Assembly (NCBI RefSeq): GCF_000970045.1
Contig: NZ_CP009505.1
Location: 2,170,001-2,234,000, forward strand
Direction: 5' to 3'
Length of the DNA stretch: 64,000 nucleotides
Origin: Methanosarcina sp. MTP4
Lineage (GTDB): Archaea; Halobacteriota; Methanosarcinia; Methanosarcinales; Methanosarcinaceae
Shown here: positions 26,007 to 56,627 of the stretch, piece after piece
How positions within the stretch are numbered: the stretch's first letter is position 1
How the letters are laid out: the number at the start of each line of letters is the position of its first letter
Position numbers and translations under genes: made by a program
The notes under the pieces: generated by a model
Seen by the model: only the letters and a program-made list of their open reading frames with translations
What the model was told of the DNA's origin: nothing
Databases searched by the model: none

Positions 26007-26198
26007 AATAGTAAGAAATTGACTGAAAATAATAGTAAGAAATTGACTGAAAATAATAGTAAGAAATTGACTGAAAATAATAGTAAGAAAGTGACTGAAA
26101 ATAATAGTAAGAAAGTGACTGAAAATAATAGTAAGAAAGTGACTGAAAATAATAGTAAGAAAGTGACTGAAAATAATAGTAAGAAAGTGACTGAAAAT
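26007..26198 (+). repeat. 24-bp tandem repeat, 8 units
   Basis: The unit AATAGTAAGAAATTGACTGA plus AAAT repeats eight times; the first three units have AAATTG and the last five AAAGTG, so a variant spread by stepwise duplication. The 24-bp period leaves frames open on both strands, but no Shine-Dalgarno or start supports translation. Confidence 0.92.
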
Positions 26199-26217
26199 AT
26201 CTGGATACTAAAATATC

Positions 26218-40185: not shown

Positions 40186-40364
40186 GGAATTGCATTCTAA
40201 AACTAAAAGGATTTAACCAAGAATCAATGTACTGAAAAACCCTTAAAGGGCGATCCATAAGGCCTGGTCCCAATTTAACGTAGTTTTAATGCATTTTAGT
40301 TCTGTACTCATTAGTCCTTACTCAATTATTTACTACTTATTTGATTTAGTTACTTATTCAAGTT

Positions 40365-40508
40365 AATTTACTTACTCAATTTACTTACTTAATTTACTTA
40401 CTTAATTTACTTACTTAATTTACTTACTTAATTTACTTACTTAATTTACTTACTTAATTTACTTACTTAATTTACTTACTTAATTTACTTACTTAATTTA
40501 CTTACTCA
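40365..40508 (+). repeat. 13-bp tandem repeat, about 11 units
   Basis: The unit AATTTACTTACTT repeats about eleven times; the edge units have CTCA variants. The flanking 100 bases on each side carry looser ACTTACTCAAGTT copies. Noncoding. Confidence 0.92.
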
Positions 40509-41951: not shown

Positions 41952-42407
41952 ATGCAGGAAAAGGAGCTCACAGCCTATTGCGGACTACATTGCGCCGATT
42001 GCATTCATTTCAGGAACAGGCACAGCAAACTTGCAGAGCAGTTGAAAGCTGAACTTGAAAAGGCGGATTTTCAGAGCTATGCAAGTGTAAAAAGCCCTTT
42101 TGGCTCCGAATTCCAGCACTATGATTCATTTATAGAAGTGCTGGAAGCCCTCATCCGACATTCCTGTACGGAAGGCTGCAGGGTTGGAGGAGGGTGCAGT
42201 AAGGAGCCCTGCCTGGTTATCGCGTGCTGCCGGGAAAAAGGATATGAGGGCTGCTGGGAATGCAGTGCGCTTGAAAGCTGCGAAAAACTCGATTTTCTAA
42301 AGCCCCGCTGTGGAGATGCAGTAATGCACAATCTGAAAGAAATCAGGGAACGAGGTTTTGACGGGTGGAGCAGGCGCCGCAGTCCTTTTTACAACTGGCA
42401 AAAATAA
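41952..42407 (+). CDS. DUF3795 cysteine-rich protein
   Basis: This 151-residue protein starts MQEKELTAYCGLHCADCIHF, the hallmark YCGLxCxxC of DUF3795, and carries further Cys clusters (CTEGCRVGGGCSKEPCLVIACC; CWECSALESCEKL; CGDAV). Twelve or more Cys suggest metal or Fe-S binding. The family is frequent in methanogens and anaerobes and its role is unknown. ATG at 41952 is chosen by family start; the frame runs back to 41895. The Shine-Dalgarno is weak. The 3' end abuts a decayed gene. Confidence 0.85.
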   Translation: MQEKELTAYCGLHCADCIHFRNRHSKLAEQLKAELEKADFQSYASVKSPFGSEFQHYDSFIEVLEALIRHSCTEGCRVGGGCSKEPCLVIACCREKGYEGCWECSALESCEKLDFLKPRCGDAVMHNLKEIRERGFDGWSRRRSPFYNWQK

Positions 42408-42967
42408 TACTGGATACTTTCCAATCAAAATATCTGCCAAATACCAAAATCAAACACCTGTGTGGGGTTGCCATAGAGAAAACCGGAAATAACCGACCTG
42501 AAATTTTAGCCGAAACCTTGTCTGCAATAGATACTGAAAAAGGAATACTTGAGTAACTCCCAGTAATCAAAGATTATTACATTGTCCCTGATGGAGGAAA
42601 ACTCGGCACGGATTTCCTCGAGTATGCCCTGGAAAACAAATTTCCCTTCGTGCTCGTCATCGACAGCGACGGAAATGCCCCTGCTTCAAAAAAGGCAAAA
42701 GTACTGGAAAACGAGGAAGAACTCGTAAAGCTGCTCAGGTCAAAGGCGAACTTCCTGGTATCGGAGAAGGATTTGCGAATATGTTTTAAATGTCCGGTGA
42801 TAATTGTCAACCTTGTTCTTGCATTCCTGATTCCTGTCCGGAACCAGCCCCCAAGCCCCGGAAAGGTTGCTTTCGGTTTTTTGAGCTTCATGGCAGGTAT
42901 ATTTCCCGAGAGGAAAGGAATATTCCGCAAATGTAAACCAGGGGACATAGAAAGTTTATTATATTAA
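42405..42967 (+). pseudogene. Relic gene with an in-frame TAA, possibly nuclease or TOPRIM related
   Basis: One frame runs from inside the DUF3795 3' end to 42967 with a single stop (TAA at 42554-42556). Before the stop it reads LAKIILDTFQSKYLPNTK; after it LPVIKDYYIVPDGGKL and FPFVLVIDSDGNAPASKKAK. The hydrophobic strand followed by DSDG recalls a TOPRIM or similar nuclease core, but this is weak. The upstream part is missing. It may be the remains of a restriction-type gene connected with the target-recognition gene that follows. Confidence 0.5.
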
Positions 42968-43115
42968 TACTTTATAATCAAACTTTACATGGGGATTTTA
43001 GAAGGTCAAAAATTCAGCCTATCCGGGTAAGGCTGTAGCTTTTGTGGATTTGCTGCTCCGGAAAGAGGCTACCGGGCAAAACTTCTAAAATATATAAAAA
43101 ATGAAGGGGAAAAAC

Positions 43116-44333
43116 ATGTTCTGGAGCAAGGACGACATTGTAGGAAGATTGAGTCAGATTCCGCACACACTTGAGGACATCTCAATAGATATCTTCAAGG
43201 GAGTTCCTTCAAAAAATGATTTCCTGCACAGGGTGAACCTTTCGAGAGAAAACTGCCCTGATGCACCGTACGTTTGCAGGAAGTTATACAAAAACGTAAA
43301 CATAGAAAGGGAATTAATGCACCCCTACATGGACGGGGCCCTTTCCAATGAATTTGCTATCCGCCAGACCTCTTATCGCTTTATGCTGCCTTACGACATC
43401 CTCAGAGACGGCATCAGAAAGGAGTACCGGGTCATCCAGCCCGCCGACCTGAAAGCAAGGTTTCCCATGGCTTACGAAAGGCTTCTGGAAATTAAAAATA
43501 AGTCCCTGCTTGATGCAGAGGAGCTTGATTCAGGAAGACTTGATTCAGGAAGACTTGATTCAGGAAGACTTGATTCAGGAAGACTTGATTCAGGAAGACT
43601 TGATTCAGGAAGACTTGATTCAGGAAGACTTGATTCAGGAAGACTTGATTCAGGAAGACTTGATTCGGCTGACTACTACCAGCTTGAGGAAGAAAAAATC
43701 CTCAGTTACACAGGCACCCCTAAAATTATCATTACCGACCACTACCGTTTCCAGGCTTCCTATGATGCAAGCGGAGACCATGTTTTTGCGGACGGGATCG
43801 GAATTGTTCTTGGCGATCCCGGCCTTTACCACTACATCACGGCAGTGCTAAACTGCTCCATATCACGGGCCTTCCCTGAAATCTGGAAACGTGAAAAATT
43901 GAGGACAGACAGCAACCTTTACCCAAAAATGCTTAAGCGATTTCCCATAGCATTCCCGAAAGACGAAAGCACAGAGATCCTGATAAGCACAATCTCCCGC
44001 TACCTGATTTACCTGAACCGGCAAAAATATATTTCAAGCGTCTGCTCCCTGGCATGCTACCAGGAACTCATCGACTTCTACAAAAGAATTGCAGACCTCT
44101 TGATTCTGGACATCTACCTTACAAACGACCTGGACCCGAGATTCATGGAAATCCTCTCCGAAAACATTACCCCCACAGAAGAAGAGTTTGAGTACAGCAG
44201 CAACATGAGCCTCATGATTGCTATGCAGGGCATAAAGAAAAGCATCCTTGATTCCCCCGATTTCCGGAAATGCAAGTTCAACAACGAGTTCACGAATATC
44301 CTGGCTACCATAAAAAACAATGGTGTGTGGTAA
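43116..44333 (+). CDS. Orphan TaqI/Eco57I-like target-recognition domain protein
   Basis: This 405-residue protein resembles only the C-terminal specificity part of type IIG or Eco57I-like restriction-modification enzymes: DISIDIFKGVPSKNDFLHRV at the start, ADLKARFPMAYERLLEIKN, then KIIITDHYRFQASYDASG and FADGIGIVLGDPGLYHYITAVLNCSIS. No SAM motif or NPPY catalytic motif is present. Between residues 136 and 181 it carries nine LDSGR repeats. ATG at 43116 has AGGGG six bases upstream (an ATG at 43101 is also in frame). It may be a leftover of a larger enzyme or a separate specificity subunit; relic sequence lies upstream. Confidence 0.75.
   Translation: MFWSKDDIVGRLSQIPHTLEDISIDIFKGVPSKNDFLHRVNLSRENCPDAPYVCRKLYKNVNIERELMHPYMDGALSNEFAIRQTSYRFMLPYDILRDGIRKEYRVIQPADLKARFPMAYERLLEIKNKSLLDAEELDSGRLDSGRLDSGRLDSGRLDSGRLDSGRLDSGRLDSGRLDSGRLDSADYYQLEEEKILSYTGTPKIIITDHYRFQASYDASGDHVFADGIGIVLGDPGLYHYITAVLNCSISRAFPEIWKREKLRTDSNLYPKMLKRFPIAFPKDESTEILISTISRYLIYLNRQKYISSVCSLACYQELIDFYKRIADLLILDIYLTNDLDPRFMEILSENITPTEEEFEYSSNMSLMIAMQGIKKSILDSPDFRKCKFNNEFTNILATIKNNGVW
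43521..43666 (+). repeat. 15-bp in-frame tandem repeat, 9 units (LDSGR)
   Basis: The unit CTTGATTCAGGAAGA repeats nine times with no change and ends in CTTGATTCGG. The exact 15-bp period keeps the frame, so unit number can vary without loss of the gene. The purity shows recent growth. Confidence 0.95.
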
Positions 44334-47378: not shown

Positions 47379-47449
47379 CACACAACCCCCACAAAGCAAA
47401 AATCATTCTTTATGGACACTTTTTATCCCTTATCTCAAACAATTCAGTA

Positions 47450-47516
47450 TCGAAGTTTAGTATCGAATTTTAGTATCGAATTTTAGTATCGAATTTTAGT
47501 ATCGAATTTTAGTATC
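47450..47516 (-). repeat. 13-bp tandem repeat across the response-regulator stop codon
   Basis: GAATTTTAGTATC occurs about five times. On the minus strand it reads GATACTAAAATTC, and the gene's last codons (Asp-Thr-Lys-Ile-Arg-Tyr-stop) are made of it. The array continues about 40 bases past the stop (47496-47498). Confidence 0.9.
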
Positions 47517-53330: not shown

Positions 53331-56300
53331 TCATTTCTTTCTTCTGGAAGAGCTAAGCAACAGAAGCACCACAAAAATAAAAACCAGCCCTGTGAAAGCC
53401 GGAGCTTCGGAAATAAAACTTTTAACTGGTTCGGGAATAAAATCTTCAACCGGGCCAAGAATAGATTCGGGATTAAAGCTTTCAACGGATTCCCGGGTCC
53501 CTTTTGAAGAAAAAGGAGAGTCTGAAGCCTTTACGTCGAGGCTCAGGGAATCATGCTGGGAGTAGGTTTTGTCCTCCTCAAAAGAGTAGAAGACATCCGC
53601 TTCAACGGTGTGTTTTCCTTCTTCATTGCCAATCATTTCAAGGGAGATGGTCCTGACATCACTGCCGGGATCAAGCGTATACTTGGCCTGATACATTCCC
53701 CCACCGCTTGTGACAAAATATGAACCCGAAACCGAGACCCCGCTTGGAGGCCTGACAACGAGCTGTACGTTCATTTTTTTGCCTCCGAGAGGGTTCATCA
53801 CCCCCAGGTCGAAAACCGCAGTTTCCCCTACATTGAGCTCTTTTTTAGTGCACTGGAAGGCTACTGACGGGCCTTTCTCGGAAACTTCCAGGGGGATTTC
53901 TTTGTGGTTTTTGTGTTCATTTTCATCGAGGTCAGAGGCTTTGATTTCTATCAGGTGGTCCCCTGCCGACAGAGGCCCCATAACGGTTTTGTAAGCCCCT
54001 TCCTCATGGAAGGTATCTATCAAGGTTCCGTCAATTTCTACCCGGACTGTTTTAATCCCGCTTTCATCCCTGACGAAGAAGTCCAGTTCAAGCTCTTCCC
54101 CGTCCTCGAGAATGGAATCTTCGTCCCCTATTTCGGAAATCCCGGAAACTTCTATCGTGGGAGCCCTGGGGTCTTCCTGCTTCAGGGCCAGGGTGTAAAA
54201 ATCACCCCTGTTTCCCACGTGTATCTGCCCTTCGGTCGGGTAATATGTTTCTTTCTCAACCCTGACCATCACATCACTTTCCTGAATCATTCGGACTTCA
54301 AGGACCCCTTCAAGGTCAGTAGAACCTGTAAAATTGTTCCCGATAAAAACTTCAGCATTGCTGACAGGCTGCCCGAAAGAGTCTTCCACGTTCAAAGTCA
54401 GGGGAACTTTTGCACAGACTATTTCCATTTTAACGCCTGTTAATTCATCATACCCCATTTCCACCTCTTTCATCGATTCAAAGTAATCGGGGTTCAGGAC
54501 GTTTACGATATGAGTTTCTCCCTGGGCAGCTTCGCTGCGGATAAAGCCTTCCTGATCGGTGGACCCGATAAACGTATTGTCAAGATAAACTTCAACCCCT
54601 TCCACCGGCTCCCCGGTACTTTCATCCGCGACCGAAATATCCAGTTTCCCGGAACTCCGGATTTTCTCGACCTGTACCGTGCCGGAAAAATCGTTGTTTG
54701 CCTCGCTTTCTTCCTCGACATACTCCGAATACCCGGCCTTATCCTTCATATCAATATACGCCGTAACCTGATAGTCACCCCCTTCCAGATCCCGGGCAAG
54801 CTTCCAGGAAAATTCGTAGACAGCTGACTCTCCTGCCTGAAGGACAGGAACTTTCTCATAGCCGAGCCTGGAGTCTTCAACATACAGACAGATGTAAAAA
54901 TCTTTTCCCGAACTCAGGCTGCCATGGTTCCCGTACTTTACGGAAAAAGTAACCTCATCTTCGGTTTTCGGGCTTGCAGGGTCCCAGGTAATTTCTTCAA
55001 TTACTAAATCAGGTCCTCCGTCACTTCCGGGTTCTTCCTCACCCTCAGGTTCTTCCTTACTCTCAGGTTCTTCCTTACTCTCAGGTTCTTCCTTACTCTC
55101 AGGTTCTACCTCACTTTCGGGTTCTACCTCACCCTCTGATTCGTCCCCACTTTCGGGTTCTACCTCACCCTCAGGTTCTTCCTCACTTCCAGGTTCTCCC
55201 TCACTTCCAGGTTCTCCCTCACTTCCAGGTTCTCCCTCACTTCCAGGTTCTCCCTCACTTCCAGGTTCTCCCTCACTTCCAGGTTCTCCCTCACTTCCAG
55301 GTTCTCCCTCACTTCCAGGTTCTCCCTCACTTCCAGGTTCTTCCTTACTCTCAGGTTCTTCCTTACTCTCAGGTTCTCCCTCACTTCCAGGTTCTTCCTT
55401 ACTCTCAGGTTCTACCTCACTTTCAGGTTCTACCTCACTTTCAGGTTCTACCTCACCCTCTGATTCGTCCCCACTTTCAGGTTCATCCCCACTTTCAGGT
55501 TCGTCCTCACTTACCTGGAATGTCTTCGAGAAGTTGTTGTTCGTCTCATCGCTTTCCTCGATATCCCCTGAACCCTCGTTTTCGTCCTCCATGTCGATGT
55601 AAGCGGCAACCTTATGTTCACCTTCCAGAACATCCGGGAAATCCGGGTCAACAGTCCAGGTACATTCGCAAACAGAAGATTCTCCGGGCTGGAGATCATC
55701 AACCCATTCATAAGCGACCTGTGAATCATCGACATAGAGACAGATGCCAAAACCATTTCCCGCATTACGGGTCCCCCGGTTGCCGTACATTACTGAAAAA
55801 GTCACTTCGTCCCCGGTTTTCGGAAATTCCGGCATCCATAAGATATCTTCGACAAAGAGGTCGGGGTTTTCGTTTCCACTTACGAAAAAATAATCCTCAA
55901 AATCATTATTCGACTCATCAGTTTCGGGGACCTGGCCGGAGGCATCAATCACCGCAATAACGGAGTGTTCTCCGATTCCCATATCCTCCCCGATATGAAA
56001 TAAAAAATCAACACTTGCACCTTCCCCCGCATCAAGGGGAAACACATCCATCTCCCCTACCAGAGTTCCATCAACAAAAAGAAAAATTACAAAACTTTCA
56101 TTACTCAGGTTCCCGAGATTTGCATATTCCACAGTAAAAATCACGTCATCCCCTATCTGCGGCTCGGGAATATCCGGGACGATTCCCAGAACAGCCAGGT
56201 CAGCCTGTTCTTCGTCAGCTGCCACCGGAATGCAAAGCAAAAGCATCAAAAAAAACACGGAAAAGAGCAATTTTGAATTGGATTTTTTGAATTGAGATGT

Positions 56301-56627
56301 CTTGAATTGAGATGTTTTGAATTGAGATGTCTTGAATTGAGATGTCTTGAATTGAGATGTCTTGAATTGAGATGTCTTGAATTGAGATGTCTTGAATTGA
56401 GATGTCTTGAATTGAGATGTCTTGAATTGAGATGTCTTGAATTGAGATGTCTTGAATTGAGATGTCTTGAATTGAGATATATTGAATTGAGATATATTGA
56501 ATTGAGATGTCTTGAATTGAGATATATTGAATTGAGATATATTGAATTGAGATTTAACAGACCTGGCTGTGATGAAACGAGAGATGTTGATTAAAGATTT
56601 CTTGACCCTGGAATTCCTGAACAGCAA
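53331..56627 (-). CDS. Large CARDB-repeat surface protein with expanded N-terminal and acidic repeats
   Basis: This 1098-residue surface protein starts with about 18 copies of a 5-residue repeat (QFKTS/QFNIS), then a signal helix (LLFSVFFLMLLLCIPVAA). Two CARDB domains follow (ADLAVLGIVPDIPEPQIG..; PDLFVEDILWMPEFPKTG..), an acidic low-complexity linker of about 160 residues (EPGSEGE, EPESKEE), a third CARDB domain, two carboxypeptidase-regulatory-like domains (GKLDISVADESTGEPVEGV; VPLTLNVEDSFGQPVSNA) and Ig-like domains. It ends in a helix and RRKK. TTG at 56627 has GGGGGG upstream. An N-terminal tail before a signal peptide is odd. Confidence 0.85.
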   Translation of the reverse strand: MLFRNSRVKKSLINISRFITARSVKSQFNISQFNISQFKTSQFNISQFNISQFKTSQFKTSQFKTSQFKTSQFKTSQFKTSQFKTSQFKTSQFKTSQFKTSQFKTSQFKTSQFKKSNSKLLFSVFFLMLLLCIPVAADEEQADLAVLGIVPDIPEPQIGDDVIFTVEYANLGNLSNESFVIFLFVDGTLVGEMDVFPLDAGEGASVDFLFHIGEDMGIGEHSVIAVIDASGQVPETDESNNDFEDYFFVSGNENPDLFVEDILWMPEFPKTGDEVTFSVMYGNRGTRNAGNGFGICLYVDDSQVAYEWVDDLQPGESSVCECTWTVDPDFPDVLEGEHKVAAYIDMEDENEGSGDIEESDETNNNFSKTFQVSEDEPESGDEPESGDESEGEVEPESEVEPESEVEPESKEEPGSEGEPESKEEPESKEEPGSEGEPGSEGEPGSEGEPGSEGEPGSEGEPGSEGEPGSEGEPGSEGEPGSEEEPEGEVEPESGDESEGEVEPESEVEPESKEEPESKEEPESKEEPEGEEEPGSDGGPDLVIEEITWDPASPKTEDEVTFSVKYGNHGSLSSGKDFYICLYVEDSRLGYEKVPVLQAGESAVYEFSWKLARDLEGGDYQVTAYIDMKDKAGYSEYVEEESEANNDFSGTVQVEKIRSSGKLDISVADESTGEPVEGVEVYLDNTFIGSTDQEGFIRSEAAQGETHIVNVLNPDYFESMKEVEMGYDELTGVKMEIVCAKVPLTLNVEDSFGQPVSNAEVFIGNNFTGSTDLEGVLEVRMIQESDVMVRVEKETYYPTEGQIHVGNRGDFYTLALKQEDPRAPTIEVSGISEIGDEDSILEDGEELELDFFVRDESGIKTVRVEIDGTLIDTFHEEGAYKTVMGPLSAGDHLIEIKASDLDENEHKNHKEIPLEVSEKGPSVAFQCTKKELNVGETAVFDLGVMNPLGGKKMNVQLVVRPPSGVSVSGSYFVTSGGGMYQAKYTLDPGSDVRTISLEMIGNEEGKHTVEADVFYSFEEDKTYSQHDSLSLDVKASDSPFSSKGTRESVESFNPESILGPVEDFIPEPVKSFISEAPAFTGLVFIFVVLLLLSSSRRKK
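55020..55505 (-). repeat. Acidic coding repeats (EPGSEGE/EPESKEE)
   Basis: Units of about 18 bp (CCCTCACTTCCAGGTTCT on the plus strand) are repeated at least nine times in a row, flanked by variants ending TTCCTTACTC and TACCTCACTT. They code for the acidic linker between CARDB domains. Blocks of variants are themselves duplicated. Confidence 0.9.
56289..56560 (-). repeat. 15-bp in-frame tandem repeat, about 18 units, before the signal helix
   Basis: The unit GAATTGAGATGTCTT, with variant GAATTGAGATATATT, codes for QFKTS/QFNIS on the minus strand. It lies between the TTG start and the signal helix. The 15-bp period keeps the frame open. Confidence 0.93.

Follow-up and report, generated by a model that had tools for sequence, protein, structure and literature searches.

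Target-recognition domains (TRDs) are usually encountered as parts of methyltransferases or as subunits that serve one. CamA is an orphan adenine methyltransferase of C. difficile. In Type I HsdS proteins, two TRDs are separated by a repeat and the protein has an HsdM partner; variants that differ in repeat length have reportedly been seen in EcoR124-type systems and in the HsdS repeats of M. pneumoniae. The CamA polypeptide consists of a catalytic domain (residues 1–320) and a TRD (residues 320–577), with R425, Q438, W439 and R441 contacting bases and the catalytic domain supplying two of the seven DNA-facing loops, as set out in PMC8187626. Persistent Methanosarcina systems are named in a survey of archaeal restriction-modification systems (PMC10609329), the available part of which makes no mention of a stand-alone TRD. 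In our literature search we did not find a stand-alone Methanosarcina TRD family described, and 'Methanosarcina' combined with 'TaqI-like C-terminal specificity' returned nothing.

Here we describe a gene from a 64,000-nucleotide stretch of the Methanosarcina sp. MTP4 genome (the window), which a sequence-only reading had taken to encode just the specificity half of an Eco57I/TaqI-like enzyme, with no SAM or nuclease motifs and with nine perfect LDSGR repeats. Domains of this kind are familiar; what varies here is their lone, genus-wide use with no adjacent methyltransferase.

The gene and its predicted fold

The features of the locus are given in Table 1. Together, ORF listing, an exact-copy search and TRF confirm an open reading frame with nine identical LDSGR repeats. 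Position 43116, the start adopted in the earlier reading, is likelier than 43101 because the frame of the nearest relative opens only at the equivalent MFW methionine, with a stop upstream of it, and because a GGGG stretch at 43106–43109, a possible ribosome-binding site, lies 6 nt before 43116.

Table 1. Positions of features at the stand-alone TRD locus (window coordinates)
Feature	Position	Strand	Basis
Relic of unrelated upstream gene family	42473..42871	+	tblastn: 60.5% identity across 152 aa, E 4.9e-49; no Pfam match
Stand-alone TRD gene	43101..44333	+	ORF open, 410 aa; 405 aa if start is 43116
Likely start codon	43116..43118	+	G003 orthologue: TAG precedes the equivalent ATG
TRD-matching region, residues 8–341	43122..44123	+	VIA-align: CamA 321–577, Z 17.0, rmsd 3.4, 233 residues aligned
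15-bp tandem array: nine identical LDSGR-encoding units and a further partial one	43524..43666	+	TRF, exact-copy search
Segment YQLEEEK, residues 193–199, equivalent to CamA Y435–R441	43677..43697	+	HMM alignment to CamA, column counts
C-terminal helical extension, ~70 residues past the CamA match	44124..44330	+	Family alignment A4; range of CamA match

Searched alone against Pfam and NCBIfam, the window protein matches no TRD model and nothing else; the absence of methyltransferase and nuclease domains agrees with the earlier reading, and a protein with neither an N6 methylase nor a nuclease by these libraries does not qualify as a Type IIG enzyme. The suggested comparison with PF12950 (TaqI_C) gave a divided answer. 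Of 13 family members, 11 match (E threshold 1, best E 9.7e-5), but the window protein itself has no hmmscan match at E 1 and scores 14.5 bits in a genome search, under the cut-off of 26.5, and so membership holds for the family through relatives, fold and profile evidence, not for the window protein directly. PADLOC methyltransferase models match the window protein weakly, over their C-terminal part; the Type IIG model aligns over only a portion of its C-terminal region (736–854 of 1182) and reaches 2.2e-13 among the 13 family members. A profile of 44 family members matches Type IIG frames of other archaea (E 4e-23, profile positions 7–288), and three of the matched frames, scanned with Pfam, contain an HSDR_N match, an Eco57I methylase and TaqI_C, in that order.

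Among PDB sequences, the window protein alone finds no TRD. What it does match there (E 0.08–0.7) are designed proteins, beta-helical and pentapeptide-like, that align with the LDSGR repeat, and we attributed these matches to chance similarity of composition. A profile built from 13 of the stand-alone members also found nothing in the PDB sequences. The sole profile to reach CamA was the bridging profile A4, built from stand-alone and fused TRDs (E 2.3e-8).

In an AlphaFold model of middling confidence (pLDDT 69.2, pTM 0.69), residues 8–341 match CamA (Z 17.0); the next fold matches of the model are M.BseCI (16.9), BrxX (15.0), BpuSI (13.3), MmeI (12.0) and HsdS (1yf2; 9.6). M.BseCI (E 1.4e-5) is the only Foldseek match under 0.001. 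A member without the repeat gave a second model of poor quality (pLDDT 59.1), for which CamA TRDs are likewise the best matches (Z 12.4). Because the matched part of CamA (321–577) coincides with its TRD (320–577), the window protein would correspond to a whole TRD cut at the inter-domain linker. Judged from the model and the profiles, it is the complete TRD of a gamma-class adenine methyltransferase or Type IIG enzyme, with the fold predicted over the whole domain to be that of CamA and M.BseCI, and the earlier assignment to the specificity half of such an enzyme was right.

The window protein nevertheless differs from each known system. CamA is matched over its entire TRD, from the linker to the C terminus, but the window protein lacks the methyltransferase half and has additional C-terminal helices. 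In alignment A4 this helical extension is common to the stand-alone proteins, and the fused Type IIG frames lack it. M.BseCI, BpuSI, MmeI and the Eco57I-like archaeal Type IIG frames are alike in TRD fold or profile, but in M.BseCI and the Type IIG/IIL enzymes the TRD is fused to a methylase, with or without a nuclease, whereas the window protein is a TRD only. The TRD fold of BrxX/PglX of BREX systems is likewise similar, and the PADLOC PglX model matches 5 of the 13 family members, but the window protein has no BREX methyltransferase domain and no PF07669 or PF02384 match nearby. Type I HsdS proteins are also separate TRD-carrying proteins with short in-frame peptide repeats; by comparison, the window protein has not two TRDs split by conserved helices but one TRD and a C-terminal helical part, with its repeat inside the TRD and no adjacent HsdM. 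Esub1 (PDB 8vsq and 8vsr, known to us by their entry titles), a small protein of 196 residues, has a TRD-like fold, matched at a Z of 7.9, a level at which chance arrangements occur.

Distribution and maintenance of the family

All 44 full-length relatives that we compared are stand-alone and come from Methanosarcina. The 43 named loci are recorded as Methanosarcina, Methanosarcinaceae or Euryarchaeota bins. A profile search of 111 genomes of the taxonomic family matched 36 (four in genus g1, two in g2, 29 in g8, and G093). The G093 match sits inside a 1067-aa frame, and three of the 35 matching genomes in g1, g2 and g8 (G001, G010 and G118) are represented by fragments or frameshifted pieces alone. 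Most of the genomes with full-length copies contain one to four of them. At the level of the phylum, the profile matched 28 of 392 genomes, including nine outside g1 and g8 in which the match falls within frames of 465–1438 aa; none of these nine has a stand-alone gene of ~360 aa. A family tree from a quick search resolves three clades of 16 (including the window), 6 and 22 rows, and by these sequence relationships the family is vertically inherited in three clades. A mobile-element origin was considered and rejected: of 31 stretches of viral contigs that matched our patterns none was confirmed as a relative, and a plasmid search with one query (L061) found none.

Over 12 chosen pairs, dN/dS ranges from 0.11 to 0.21, with dS above 1 in two pairs that involve L053. 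The family is maintained under purifying selection. Some lineages are losing copies, with broken or frameshifted members at L084 (= L032), L085, L087 and L088 and in G010 and G118.

Possible roles of a lone TRD

We hold with moderate confidence that the window gene belongs to a genus-wide Methanosarcina family of domesticated stand-alone TRDs that probably bind DNA without catalysis. The ancestor would have been an adenine methyltransferase, Type IIG or CamA-like, that lost its catalytic half at the linker and retained a complete TRD; the C-terminal helical extension would have been gained afterwards. The old TRD face would still bind DNA, probably in a sequence-selective manner, and the protein would neither methylate nor cleave DNA but act by occupying it, whether as a regulator, a roadblock or a chromosome factor. 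Retention of the whole TRD, a basic residue at a contact position and purifying selection suggest that the lone TRD perhaps binds DNA. Since the CamA catalytic domain provides part of the DNA contacts, binding by a lone TRD may be weak.

Charge would count against DNA binding. The stand-alone TRDs are slightly acidic on average (mean net charge −0.6 per 100 aa, mean pI 6.7), although that of the window is not (+0.9 per 100 aa, pI 8.3). Five of seven fused TRDs are net positive (+0.4 to +3.7 per 100 aa), and the two non-positive ones come from strongly acidic whole proteins, probably reflecting the acidity seen in haloarchaea. The acidic pI of many members is one reason to consider that the scaffold has been repurposed for a role away from DNA, for example as a protein-interaction module. 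The C-terminal extension, which is strongly conserved and which the aligned fused enzymes lack, points the same way, as does the alignment at the CamA contact residues: Q438 and W439 are not conserved in the family, and the W439 aromatic is lost in all 44 rows. On the other hand, the TRD core is kept over its whole length, and of the three base-contact residues compared it is the basic residue at R441 that is mostly retained (K or R in 32 of 44 rows). The Y435-equivalent position is Y in all 44 rows. We consider a non-DNA role unlikely, but the most serious alternative to a lone DNA-binding TRD.

That lone TRDs form a conserved, vertically inherited, multi-copy family and have no methyltransferase nearby suggests reuse of the recognition half of a restriction-modification enzyme in a genetically tractable methanogen genus. 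If the proteins bind specific sites, archaeal regulators could have arisen from them that do not belong to the usual helix-turn-helix families.

Relation to methyltransferases

A lone TRD could also serve as a specificity subunit in trans, docking on an HsdM-like or Type II methyltransferase encoded elsewhere and directing it as HsdS does. The model's resemblance to HsdS is compatible with this arrangement, and candidate partners exist: PF02384 is matched in 14 of 14 genomes searched, and the window genome has four N6_Mtase (HsdM) loci. Each of these four loci, however, has its own Methylase_S match within ~4 kb. In 21 distinct genomes (9 and then 14 searched), there is no PF02384 or PF07669 match within 55 kb of a family gene, nor, for the draft assemblies among them, anywhere on the contig of the family gene; the adjacent HsdM expected of a Type I HsdS is thus missing over this range. 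On this evidence the window gene is not half of a nearby enzyme. G128 is a complete single-contig genome of 3.1 Mb with two intact family members. It has no DNA amino-methyltransferase detectable by PF07669, PF02384 or PF01555; its weak PF02384 and PF01555 matches both fall on one THUMP-UPF0020, RNA-methyltransferase-like protein. Action as a subunit in trans appears doubtful.

The LDSGR array

The array consists of nine identical units of CTTGATTCAGGAAGA, starting at 43524, 43539 and so on to 43644 and spanning 43524–43658; TRF reports 9.5 copies at 100% match. It is not a chance occurrence: when two units serve as the search pattern and up to 3 mismatches are allowed, nothing else in the 4.21-Mb genome matches, and the backwards control gives zero. 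Within the window, 15 arrays pass a filter of period 10–30, three or more copies and a match of 90% or higher; the same filter finds 13 in ten other loci totalling 189.5 kb, one of them from the window's own genome. The LDSGR array is real, but locally it is one of many and not exceptional.

The earlier reading drew an analogy to HsdS spacers, in which the number of repeats alters target spacing, and proposed that length variation here might alter recognition. The first element of the analogy fails, because the array lies inside a single TRD with no second half whose spacing could change. What stands is the location: in the CamA alignment, the array falls between the equivalents of R425 and of Q438/W439/R441, and because these residues contact bases in CamA, repeat number may affect DNA contact or recognition. 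The number of units also differs between orthologues in three species-level genomes (nine in the window, three degenerate in L054, the nearest relative, and one in the frameshifted G001 orthologue), and a unit length of 15 bp preserves the reading frame. A contingency locus like those with HsdS repeats, in which the number of units in this loop, ahead of the DNA-facing segment, would tune recognition, is nonetheless very unlikely. Only the window member and L054 have an array among the 44 full-length members, the other 42 having a single short stretch at that place; the segment is predicted to be disordered (residues 145–183, pLDDT below 50); and the window is rich in such arrays. We regard as highly improbable the more elaborate proposal that a TRD domesticated at the base of Methanosarcina gave rise to multi-copy sequence-specific regulators, with a slippage-prone 15-bp array adjusting the binding of one paralogue in the window lineage.

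In the favoured reading the array is a recent local expansion, probably neutral or minor in effect. In-frame slippage would have multiplied a unit that the loop preceding the DNA-facing segment already contained, and the product would be tolerated as a disordered insert, most likely with little effect. On present evidence the repeat itself is of little importance.

The upstream relic and neighbouring genes

One could cite the missing catalytic domain and the broken relatives (G001, G010, G118, L085, L087 and L088) for a pseudogene left by truncation of a Type IIG enzyme, but this possibility is negligible. All 44 full-length rows are stand-alone and form vertical clades, none of these relatives carries the full-length enzyme that such a truncation would imply, and dN/dS between the window gene and L054 is 0.13 and low in both halves (0.15 before the repeat, 0.12 after).

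The sequence-only reading had suggested that a relic at 42405–42967 might be the missing part of the enzyme. We rejected this candidate for the methyltransferase part. The relic is a decayed copy of a separate neighbouring gene, and its tblastn counterpart, of ~350 aa, is encoded in L054 on the upstream side of the TRD gene. Members of this family are intact just upstream of the TRD gene in relatives (L054:520-1572, L052:6465-7505); three of them do not resemble the Type IIG frames searched, and two of the three have no Pfam match. The family contains a GGGKIGTDFL-like motif and lies upstream of the TRD gene in several loci.

Neighbouring genes were called as ORFs by a greedy procedure, with eight proteins scanned against Pfam and most neighbours compared by BLAST clusters. 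Genes of a 7TM histidine-kinase cluster lie downstream of the TRD gene on the same strand in many loci (L046–L049, L055–L057, L060, L061, L063, L066, L067, L082 and L085), with nearest gaps of 185–1682 bp. The one downstream histidine kinase scanned contains PF16927. An operon with the histidine kinase was rejected in view of these gaps and of the opposite strand of the histidine kinase in the window, and we treat the association as synteny.

The density of short arrays in the window is higher than in the ten other loci sampled. A 1098-aa ORF on the minus strand (53331–56627) contains an 18-bp array of 28 copies (55009–55512) and a 15-bp array of 18.8 copies (56273–56553). Further near-perfect arrays are found at 40363–40506 (13 bp, 11 copies), 26007–26199 (24 bp, 8 copies) and 47446–47516 (13 bp, 5.5 copies), and 69-bp repeats at 271–937 are of the leucine-rich-repeat type as judged by eye.
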